In this document: in pieces, positions 18,052 through 21,151 of the stretch | How positions within the stretch are numbered: position 1 is the first letter of the stretch | How the letters are laid out: each line of letters begins with the position of its first letter | Position numbers and translations under genes: made by a program | The notes under the pieces: generated by a model | What the model was told of the DNA's origin: nothing | Database searches by the model: none | The model's input: the letters and a program-made list of their open reading frames with translations, nothing else | From: Parvularculaceae bacterium | GTDB taxonomy: Bacteria; Pseudomonadota; Alphaproteobacteria; Caulobacterales; Parvularculaceae | Length of the DNA: 64,000 nt | Direction of reading: 5' to 3' | Assembly (NCBI GenBank): GCA_020446945.1 | Contig: JAGRDS010000006.1 | Location: forward strand, 1 to 64,000

Positions 18052-19077
18052 TTAAGCGCGCTTGTTCGCTCTTTCGACGCTCGGCGCCAGATTGTGCTTG
18101 CGCACGAGGCCGCGCATTTGATCATAAGTAAGCGACAGAAAATTCGCTGCTTCCTTCTGGTTCCATCCGCATGCGGCAAGCGCATTCTCGGCCGCGCGCT
18201 TTTCAAAATCGTTCAGGGATTTTCTCAAGTCGATCCTGCCGTCTTGCTTTTCGCGAGGGCGTTCATCGAGTCGCGGCGGCGCAGTTGTCGCGACGGTTTT
18301 TGCAAACGGATCGATCGAGACTTCATCGACTGGCCCGGACGCACCCATCGATATCCATCTATGGAATGACCGCTCAGCCGCATTTTTCAGCTCACGGACG
18401 TTCCCCGGCCAGTGATGCGATAGAAAGGCGGCGAGCGCCTTAGGCGTGAAACCGGAAAATTGCACGCCGATCTCACGCGCAATGGCGCCGGCGAAATGTG
18501 CGGCGAGCAAGGGGATATCTTCTCGCCTTTCCCGCAGGGGCGGCGCGGCGATTACGTCGAAAGCGAGCCTGTCGAGTAGGTCGGCGCGAAATGAGTTCGC
18601 TTCCGCCATAGCGGGGAGGTCGGCGTTCGCTGCGGCGATGACGCGAACATCGGCGATCAAAGTTTCCGAGCCGCCAACCCTTTCAAATTCGCCATATTCG
18701 ATGACGCGCAGGAGTTTTTCCTGAATGCGCAAACTCGCCGAGGCGATCTCGTCAAGAAAGAGCGTTCCGCCTTCCGCGCGCTCGAAACGCCCGGAATGTC
18801 GGCGCGTCGCGCCGGTGAAGGCGCCCGCTTCATGGCCGAACAACTCACTGTCGAGGAGTTCGTCGGAAAGAGCCGCGCAATTGACTTTGATCAGCGGTCC
18901 ATCCCAGCGCGGTGAAAGAAAGTGGATGCGCGCGGCGATCAGTTCCTTGCCCGACCCCCGCTCGCCGCAAATAAGGAGCGGCCTGTCGAGCGCGGCCATT
19001 GTCGATGCATGAGCGAGAGCATCGAGAAAAGCCGGCGCCTGGCCAATCAGTTCAGGCGGCTGACGGAGGTTTTCCAT
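18052..19077 (-). CDS. pspF: Phage-shock operon transcriptional activator PspF
   Basis: A sigma-54 enhancer-binding protein of 341 residues without an N-terminal receiver domain. Seen: AAA+ Walker A GERGSGKE (38-45), the sigma-54-contacting GAFTGA loop (85-90), Walker B GGTLFLDEI (103-111), the FRADLLDRL region, and a C-terminal Fis-type helix-turn-helix (NQKEAANFLSLTYDQMRGLV). PspF is normally held inactive by PspA and activates the psp promoter when PspA is recruited to damaged membrane. It is divergent from the psp genes, which have a sigma-54 promoter. The ATG was chosen because the family starts there; the frame is open further upstream. Confidence 0.93.
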   Translation of the reverse strand: MENLRQPPELIGQAPAFLDALAHASTMAALDRPLLICGERGSGKELIAARIHFLSPRWDGPLIKVNCAALSDELLDSELFGHEAGAFTGATRRHSGRFERAEGGTLFLDEIASASLRIQEKLLRVIEYGEFERVGGSETLIADVRVIAAANADLPAMAEANSFRADLLDRLAFDVIAAPPLRERREDIPLLAAHFAGAIAREIGVQFSGFTPKALAAFLSHHWPGNVRELKNAAERSFHRWISMGASGPVDEVSIDPFAKTVATTAPPRLDERPREKQDGRIDLRKSLNDFEKRAAENALAACGWNQKEAANFLSLTYDQMRGLVRKHNLAPSVERANKRA

Positions 19078-19080
19078 AGG

Positions 19081-19211: not shown

Positions 19212-19228
19212 TTGGCACGGTCTTCGCA
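19212..19228 (+). promoter_or_regulatory. Sigma-54 promoter of the psp operon
   Basis: The element TTGGCACGGTCTTCGCA matches the sigma-54 consensus TGGCACGrNNNTTGCw with one mismatch (TCGC for TTGC) and has the invariant GG-N10-GC spacing. It points right toward the micropeptide gene and pspA; the expected transcript start is near 19240, about 50 bases before the first ATG. The divergent PspF and the sigma-54 element explain each other. Confidence 0.85.
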
Positions 19229-19290
19229 AAGAGCTGGTTAATCAGAGGTGAATGCGCCTTGTGTTTGGCGCTCGAAGGAGAAGGAAGACC

Positions 19291-19422
19291 ATGAGCTACT
19301 ACCGATACGGCGAACGTGACGAAGATTGGGAGGCCCGGTTTTCCCGCGCCTGCCGCGCGAGAGAAGGATTCGCCTGGGGCGCATTCCTTATTGGTTTCGT
19401 GATCGGCGGCATTATCTTTTGA
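19291..19422 (+). CDS. 43-residue membrane micropeptide, first gene of the psp operon
   Basis: A short gene of 44 codons beginning ATGAGCTACTACCGA, preceded by a very strong ribosome site (GAAGGAGAAGGAAG). The product starts MSYYRYGERDEDWEARF, a charged cytosolic-type segment, and ends with one hydrophobic helix, about FAWGAFLIGFVIGGIIF (27-43), with no residues after it: a C-tail-anchored single-span peptide. It is the first gene after the sigma-54 promoter and stops 11 bp before pspA. I do not recognise a family. Its place suggests a regulator or accessory of the PspABC complex, which is inference. Confidence 0.75.
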   Translation: MSYYRYGERDEDWEARFSRACRAREGFAWGAFLIGFVIGGIIF

Positions 19423-19433
19423 CGGAGGATCGA

Positions 19434-20111
19434 ATGGGCGTTTTTTCAAGACTGTCAGACATCATCAATTCAAACCTGAATTCGATGCTCGACAAGGCGG
19501 AGGATCCGGAAAAGATCGTGCGTCTTATAATCCAGGAAATGGAGGATACGCTTGTCGAGGTGCGAAGCCGTGCGGCGCGCGCCATCGCCGACCGCAAGGA
19601 AGTCGAACGCAAGAAGGCGGAATTCGAGCGACGGGCGAATGAGTGGGAATCGAAAGCTGAACTCGCAATCGCCAAGGGACGCGAAGATCTCGCGCGCGGA
19701 GCCATCGCCGCAAAGCGCAAGGCGCTGGAAATGGTCGAATTGTTCGACAAGGAATTCGACGCGATCGACAATAGTCTCGGCAAGGCTAATGACGATCTCG
19801 AAAAGCTTCAGTCCAAGCTGAAGGAGGCCCGCGCCAAACAACGCAGCCTCGAAATTCGCCGCTCGACAGCGGAGGGCGCGGTCCGGATCAACCGCGCGGT
19901 ATATGACGGGCGGATCGATGAAGCCATGGCGCGTTACGAACGATACGAGCGCCGCATAGACGAGCTTGAAGCGGAAGCGGAAAGCTATGTCCTCGGTCGG
20001 CCGAAATCGCTGGAACAGGAATTCCGCGAGCTGGAAACGGAAGACGATGTTAACGCGGAACTCGATGAAATGAAGAAGCGGGTCGCGGCCCGCGCCGGCG
20101 GCGCTGCCTAG
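19434..20111 (+). CDS. pspA: Phage shock protein A (PspA/IM30 family)
   Basis: A 225-residue coiled-coil protein that binds stressed inner membrane and, unbound, inhibits PspF. It begins MGVFSRLSDIINSNLNSMLDKAEDPEKIVRLIIQEME, the N-terminal amphipathic helix and conserved region of PspA, followed by long heptad helices (about 40-200) with many Lys/Glu. Length is near the E. coli 222. The ATG at 19434 has GGAGG close upstream. It belongs to the micropeptide-pspA-pspB-pspC transcript. Confidence 0.96.
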   Translation: MGVFSRLSDIINSNLNSMLDKAEDPEKIVRLIIQEMEDTLVEVRSRAARAIADRKEVERKKAEFERRANEWESKAELAIAKGREDLARGAIAAKRKALEMVELFDKEFDAIDNSLGKANDDLEKLQSKLKEARAKQRSLEIRRSTAEGAVRINRAVYDGRIDEAMARYERYERRIDELEAEAESYVLGRPKSLEQEFRELETEDDVNAELDEMKKRVAARAGGAA

Positions 20112-20137: not shown

Positions 20138-20386
20138 ATGGAAAACCCCTGGCCGTATATCGTTGCGATTGTTGCAATCGTTGTGATTGGTCTGCCGTCA
20201 ATGGTGATGCACTATTTTACTGAAATGAAGAAGATGAAGGCGCCGACGCCAGACGATGAACGGCTTGTGGAGGATCTCTGGCGCACCGCGCAACGTCTTG
20301 AGCGCCGCATTGATGCGCTCGAAACCATCCTCGACAAGGAAGCGCCGAAATGGCGCGAGGATTACAAGGAGCGACCCCATGTCTAG
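20138..20386 (+). CDS. pspB: Phage shock protein B
   Basis: An 82-residue inner-membrane protein: one N-terminal helix (WPYIVAIVAIVVIGLPSMVMHYF) followed by the cytosolic coiled-coil LVEDLWRTAQRLERRIDALETIL, the classic PspB form with its LxxxAxRxxRRIxxLExIL pattern. PspB works with PspC as membrane stress sensor. Its 3' end overlaps the pspC start by 8 bp. Confidence 0.94.
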   Translation: MENPWPYIVAIVAIVVIGLPSMVMHYFTEMKKMKAPTPDDERLVEDLWRTAQRLERRIDALETILDKEAPKWREDYKERPHV

Positions 20387-20924
20387 ACGGCGCCGCAGGC
20401 ATCGCGACCATTGGGACATGCGCGGCGACGGCGTACATCCTGAAGTCGAGCGCTTCATCAAGCATGTGAACGGCTATTTCGATGATCTGAAAGGCCATGG
20501 CCGATACGCGCACCATGTGGGCGATCCTGGCCCCGGTCCGAATCGTCATCGAATCTATCGAGATGTGCGCGGCGGCAAGATCGCCGGCGTATGTGCGGGG
20601 CTTGCCGATTATTTCGGATGGCGAGTCAAATATGTGCGAATTGCGCTCGTCCTTTTGACATTGGTTTCGTTTCCAATTCCGATTTTCCTTTATGGTGCGG
20701 CGGCGATTTTCATGCCGCCTGGAGAGACAATCGCCACGCGATACGACAATCCGGATGAGGAACATTTCTGGCGCAATTATTCGATGCGCCCAAAGGTGAC
20801 CTATTCGCAATTGCGTCACCGGTTCAGAGCGATTGAGGCGCGCATCGCCGATATGGAGAGGGCGGTGACCTCAAACGAGTATGCATTGAGAAAGGAATTC
20901 CGCGACCTCGAAAGCGGAGCCTGA
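20379..20924 (+). CDS. pspC: Phage shock protein C (PspC domain protein)
   Basis: A 181-residue membrane protein. A His/Arg-rich N-terminal extension (RRRRRHRDHWD) precedes the PspC domain: RDVRGGKIAGVCAGLADYFGWRVKYVRIALVLLTLVSFPIPIFLYGAAAIFMP. The C-terminal 70 residues form a soluble helical tail (TYSQLRHRFRAIEARIADME). PspC with PspB relays envelope stress to PspA. The N-terminal extension makes it longer than E. coli PspC (119 residues). The start overlaps pspB. Confidence 0.93.
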   Translation: MSRRRRRHRDHWDMRGDGVHPEVERFIKHVNGYFDDLKGHGRYAHHVGDPGPGPNRHRIYRDVRGGKIAGVCAGLADYFGWRVKYVRIALVLLTLVSFPIPIFLYGAAAIFMPPGETIATRYDNPDEEHFWRNYSMRPKVTYSQLRHRFRAIEARIADMERAVTSNEYALRKEFRDLESGA

Positions 20925-21001: not shown

Positions 21002-21151
21002 ATGCGTTACGCCATTAAAGGGGGCTGGTTATTGCTTCTTGCGGCGGCTGGCTTGTTTGCGGCTTCGGTTTCGGGCGGGCCCGCGCCGGTGTCGCTTGCT
21101 CACGGGGCGTCCGCCCAGCCCCCGGCATGCTGCCTTTATATAATATTCTGA
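21002..21151 (+). CDS. 49-residue exported or membrane peptide after pspC
   Basis: A 50-codon frame beginning ATGCGTTACGCC with a good ribosome site (AAGGGAGAG, 5-6 bases upstream). The product has a basic N-terminus (MRYAIKGGW), a hydrophobic core (LLLLAAAGLFAASV) and a possible cleavage site after GASA, leaving a short tail with two adjacent Cys (QPPACCLYIIF). No family is recognised. It lies 77 bp after pspC in the same orientation, so it may be the last gene of the psp transcript or stand alone. Real expression is uncertain. Confidence 0.5.
   Translation: MRYAIKGGWLLLLAAAGLFAASVSGGPAPVSLAHGASAQPPACCLYIIF

Follow-up and report, generated by a model that had tools for sequence, protein, structure and literature searches.

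Few envelope stress systems have been studied as thoroughly as the Psp response. The integral membrane proteins YdjG and YdjH are required for the membrane recruitment of PspA in B. subtilis (PMC8581546), and YohP alters membrane properties, its early production inducing PspA and PspC (PMC12719787). PspD is encoded after pspC, and PMC11237479 records it solely from Gammaproteobacteria that have this operon. PMC9239133 further describes LiaI, from the liaIH operon of B. subtilis, as shown experimentally to anchor the PspA homologue LiaH at the membrane.

Here, we describe a gene for a 43-aa protein heading the psp operon of a Parvularculaceae bacterium, in a window of 64,000 nucleotides (the whole stretch of DNA that was analysed, to which all coordinates refer). 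The gene order is divergent pspF, the small open reading frame (ORF), pspA, pspB and pspC. The sigma-54 activator PspF is encoded at 18052-19080 on the minus strand (TIGR02974, 451.5 bits), while the plus strand carries pspA (19434-20111; TIGR02977, 286 bits), pspB (20138-20386; TIGR02976, 69.6 bits) and pspC (20379-20924; TIGR02978, 104.9 bits), all four scoring above the cut-offs of their models. A sigma-54 -24/-12 promoter element (TGGCACGGTCTTCGCA, 19213-19228, plus strand), agreeing with the consensus at 11 of 12 scored positions, begins 78 nt before the ATG of the small ORF and recurs at the same place in most related psp loci. The small ORF itself spans 19291-19422 (plus strand, stop included) and translates as MSYYRYGERDEDWEARFSRACRAREGFAWGAFLIGFVIGGIIF; its frame, sequence and coordinates in the original prediction were exact when the window was re-read. 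Two further in-frame starts, at 19252 and 19261, were rejected as the true start, being unconserved in relatives, unlike 19291. The Shine-Dalgarno (SD) region of the small ORF (AAGGAGAAGGA, 19275-19285, plus strand) pairs with the anti-SD at -8.8 kcal/mol (RNAduplex), ranking in the top 6% among the 83 long ORFs of the window and within the top 1.6% of all its ATGs. The ribosome site, described beforehand as exceptionally strong, is thus strong but not the strongest, as the pspA SD (GGAGG, 19424-19428, plus strand), directly 3' of the small ORF's stop, reaches -9.5 kcal/mol. Between that stop and pspA lies a gap of 11 nt.

That the small ORF leads the psp operon, as had been proposed, is borne out by the position of the promoter and by a survey of promoter spacing. 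The order promoter, small ORF, pspA on a single strand also recurs in 42 distinct loci whose promoter could be recognized. The median distance from the promoter to the small ORF start is 67 nt where the ORF is present, and since this is close to the distance from promoter to pspA where it is absent (median 57.5 nt), the small ORF fills the slot of the first gene.

The arrangement resembles that of LiaI in B. subtilis in that a small membrane protein is encoded directly before a PspA homologue in a stress operon, the membrane nature being predicted here. LiaI, however, is longer than the 43-aa protein and showed no homology to it by any test made, and liaIH is under LiaRS, whereas the operon of the small ORF is under PspF and sigma-54. 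PspB, PspC, PspD and PspG are similar as membrane-associated members of the PspF regulon, the first two sharing the operon here. In E. coli, by contrast, the pspF-pspA interval measures 166 nt and holds no annotated gene. YdjG and YdjH are likewise membrane proteins from a pspA operon (pspA-ydjGHI), but their genes lie after pspA and they act with the SPFH protein YdjI. YohP-type proteins share a length below 50 residues, a single transmembrane helix and a link to envelope stress (PMC12719787); their genes, however, are found outside psp operons, whereas the small ORF is strictly tied to pspA.

Purifying selection acts on the amino acids of the small ORF. Across nine aligned 43-codon sequences from relatives, the pooled pN/pS of its frame is 0.24, compared with 1.8 and 1.4 for the other sense frames of the same alignment, and the differences by codon position (249/181/673) are in excess at the third. 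Frame conservation with a low pN/pS, named in the original prediction as the pattern that would speak for the gene, is therefore present. An antisense frame at 19238-19384 was also considered as a gene and rejected: it is open in seven of the nine relatives, but its pN/pS of 1.46 indicates no coding constraint. Short open frames are common, as this antisense frame also illustrates, and the small ORF could be read as a chance frame or as non-coding regulatory DNA, but the probability of this is negligible. The reading is refuted by selection (pN/pS of 0.24, while the other sense frames reach 1.4-1.8 and the open antisense frame 1.46), by the retention of the ORF across many families, by profile matches upstream of pspA and by co-occurrence with PspA. 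It is near-certain that the small ORF is a real gene and a Psp partner.

For co-occurrence, 61 genomes of relatives within the window's genus, family and order were searched with a profile built from an alignment of 30 diverse members of the small ORF family (A4) and with the PspA model TIGR02977. PspA is carried by 32 of the 61 genomes, and the identical 32 carry the small ORF, always adjoining pspA, while the profile search found it in none of the 29 PspA-less genomes. There are exceptions in neither direction, and the Fisher p of 5e-18, uncorrected for phylogeny, overstates the case because relatives are non-independent samples. With tblastn, close homologues were found throughout the genus and family, every one directly before pspA. 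A frame missing from close relatives, earlier put forward as evidence against the gene, was not observed: start, reading frame and protein are conserved in all 32 PspA-bearing relatives, as are the anticipated charged N-terminus and C-terminal helix. One genome (G054) has an extra weak profile match with a stop inside, and in another (G059) PspA falls just below the cut-off, with the small ORF adjoining it. When the profile was run over 17,142 reading frames of psp loci, every match at E<1e-4 lay upstream of pspA; the strong genome-wide matches are all at psp loci, and the small ORF was never seen away from pspA.

Of 387 genomes drawn across the class, 47 carry PspA, and the regions upstream of pspA were read in all 47. 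The small ORF family is present in 13 of them at E<1e-4, and two loci, L063 and L090, probably hold further members, L063 grouping with holders on the PspA tree. Named holders include Parvularculaceae, Marinicaulis, Robiginitomaculum, Litorimonas, Algimonas, Hellea, Hyphomonas, Ponticaulis, Inquilinus and Azospirillum. The small ORF was not found in the psp loci of Thalassospira, Kiloniella and Novispirillum, and in the first two pspA itself starts at the small ORF's distance from the promoter. None was found in the Gammaproteobacteria examined, including E. coli, and in a phylum-wide search the matches from outside Alphaproteobacteria were all weak (E 6e-4 or worse) and fell in frames that were long or broken by stops. 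In the PspA tree, every member of the clade formed by the window's order is positive except L005, which the presence pattern mislabelled. Other alphaproteobacterial lineages are patchy, with eight or fewer changes between presence and absence, a slight overcount since the pattern missed L005 (SHRGFAWG) and probably L063. A MAG named Luteitalea, a genus of Acidobacteriota (L110), carries a Parvularculaceae-type psp locus with a PspA 84% identical, and is therefore probably mislabelled or misbinned.

The 43-aa protein comprises a charged N-terminal part, a basic juxtamembrane stretch and a predicted C-terminal transmembrane helix (residues about 26-43; hydropathy 2.25). AF2 models one helix over residues 9-42, with confidence in the transmembrane part only (mean pLDDT 91-92 over residues 31-43). 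Family members differ in the length of the N-terminal part, and the core motif is R-x4-W-x-(F/A)-F-x-(A/I)-G-x3-(G/A), with a short hydrophobic stretch closing the protein. Judged from the sequence, the Arg-rich segment preceding the helix and the lack of a tail suggest an N-in orientation that places the C-terminus on the opposite side of the membrane, and we infer a single-span, tail-anchored inner-membrane protein with a cytoplasmic N-terminus. Amphipathicity of the juxtamembrane helix was not significant in any of five members, and conservation along the transmembrane helix did not concentrate significantly on one face either (moment p = 0.26), so no interface is pinpointed. As the search pattern partly fixed W, F and G in the conservation-moment test, their invariance is taken from the 30-member alignment A4.

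No Pfam or NCBIfam model matches the small ORF family, so that the label unannotated, given to the gene at the outset, holds at the family level. Known families in Pfam, NCBIfam and PDB sequences were rejected, with single-member or weak matches only; a LiaI-type domain had no Pfam or NCBIfam match, and none of the 30 members matched the PspB, PspC, PspD or PspG family models at E<=0.5. The suggestion that the gene lies below common gene-calling limits is doubtful, as its 132 nt exceed the default Prodigal minimum of 90 nt and RefSeq called an unrelated ORF of 48 aa at the corresponding position in Sphingomonas parapaucimobilis. We found no description of such a gene in the open literature searched, and the accessible portions of two large psp surveys (PMC9239133, PMC11237479) make no mention of one. 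As far as those portions extend, both surveys appear to have missed a gene heading the psp operon across a whole order; neighbours in PMC9239133 are there defined via known protein domains, and the small ORF family is without any. The core motif could be used by annotation pipelines to recognize the family.

The best explanation, to which we assign about an even chance, is that the small ORF is the first gene of a PspF/sigma-54 psp operon and that its product, a dedicated Psp partner, docks PspA and/or PspBC at the membrane. Both membership of the Psp complex and the docking role are inferred from the following fit: the strict linkage to PspA, the first position in the operon and the single-span form. 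The small protein would be made first upon psp induction and insert into the inner membrane, where, as a docking or adaptor subunit, it would contact PspA and/or PspB-PspC via its conserved cytoplasmic and juxtamembrane stretch and the W-x2-F-x2-G-x3-(G/A) helix. Docking may help to recruit PspA to the membrane or to release PspF, and the small protein would relate to PspA as LiaI does to LiaH. It counts against this role that many alphaproteobacterial psp operons, those of Thalassospira and Kiloniella among them, and all gammaproteobacterial ones examined work without the small ORF. A broader and more tentative proposal, which we hold at somewhat less than an even chance, is that the protein is an undescribed core subunit of many alphaproteobacterial Psp systems, in the form of a minimal, tail-anchored docking protein whose synthesis precedes that of PspA and which sets where and when PspA assembles on the membrane. 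It would be a proteobacterial counterpart of LiaI of independent origin, with unrelated small proteins in the same slot in other alphaproteobacteria. As a strictly psp-linked membrane protein of 43 residues, it represents a small, testable handle on PspA membrane recruitment outside E. coli and Bacillus.

The main rival to docking is a regulator within the complex, in which the protein would be a Psp subunit acting negatively on, or fine-tuning, PspB/PspC signalling or the PspA-PspF interaction instead of anchoring PspA; this is possible, though on the whole doubtful. A regulator of a membrane protein complex, as the original prediction had it, is a plausible candidate role. It draws on the same genomic evidence as docking (selection, profile and co-occurrence); a product encoded first would feed back quickly, W, F and G, invariant in A4, suggest a specific transmembrane contact, and small single-span regulators of membrane proteins are comparable. 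No sequence feature, however, tells a regulator from an anchor, and the conservation moment is non-significant.

Many stress-induced small proteins of bacteria are single-span, and YohP alters membrane properties (PMC12719787). The small ORF might similarly encode a stress-induced protein that acts on the bilayer itself or on another client, such as a protease or a respiratory or transport complex, and is merely coregulated with psp. We consider this unlikely, as the small ORF was never found away from pspA and PspA-less relatives lack it, whereas a general effector would be expected to part from psp sometimes. Even less probable, and in our judgement very improbable, is a leader peptide or translational coupler, where translation and not its product controls pspA expression. 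The stop in the window stands directly before the pspA SD, with the 11-nt gap, and gaps are 9-14 nt in most of the family, as such coupling would have it; in other lineages, however, pspA lies 17 to about 100 nt away, which brings the overall range to 9 to about 100 nt and shows that tight coupling has not been kept. Conservation of amino acids and not codons also disfavours the leader peptide, as does the fact that the conserved part is a transmembrane helix.

Other small ORFs were observed in or near the first-gene slot. In sphingomonad-type psp operons (L091, L093, L095, L096 and L206:2323-2469), the same slot is occupied by a small protein that is unrelated and carries a hydrophobic stretch in its N-terminal part. 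The slot ORF on a Sphingomonas parapaucimobilis plasmid is the unrelated 48-aa RefSeq hypothetical protein WP_347091103.1, and a plasmid-borne annotated relative was rejected, as the sole alphaproteobacterial one among the matches listed (Sphingomonas) has this unrelated ORF. Second pspA copies without pspF (L107, L108) show a similar layout, the small ORF ahead of them being unrelated but likewise having a C-terminal transmembrane helix (METTMTTMTFFAKRAARTNEVTG...). Litorimonas-type loci carry, ahead of the gene for the small membrane protein, a further small ORF rich in Arg (MTFRT.../MTYRT...) (L023 from 1302, L024 from 1319 and L213 from 1307, oriented as pspA). In one family, represented by L031 (1298-1504) and L043 (1271-1483, both oriented as pspA), an extra ORF of 68-70 aa separates the promoter from the small ORF. 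For one of the two there is a weak resemblance to DUF1127 (E 0.012, short of the cut-off); in Salmonella, PspA co-precipitates with YjiS, a DUF1127 protein (PMC11707872). In the window itself, a 49-aa ORF after pspC (21002-21151, plus strand) has a signal-peptide-like N-terminus and an SD, and is weakly conserved, its sole match being a partial one (46%) in the congener L109.
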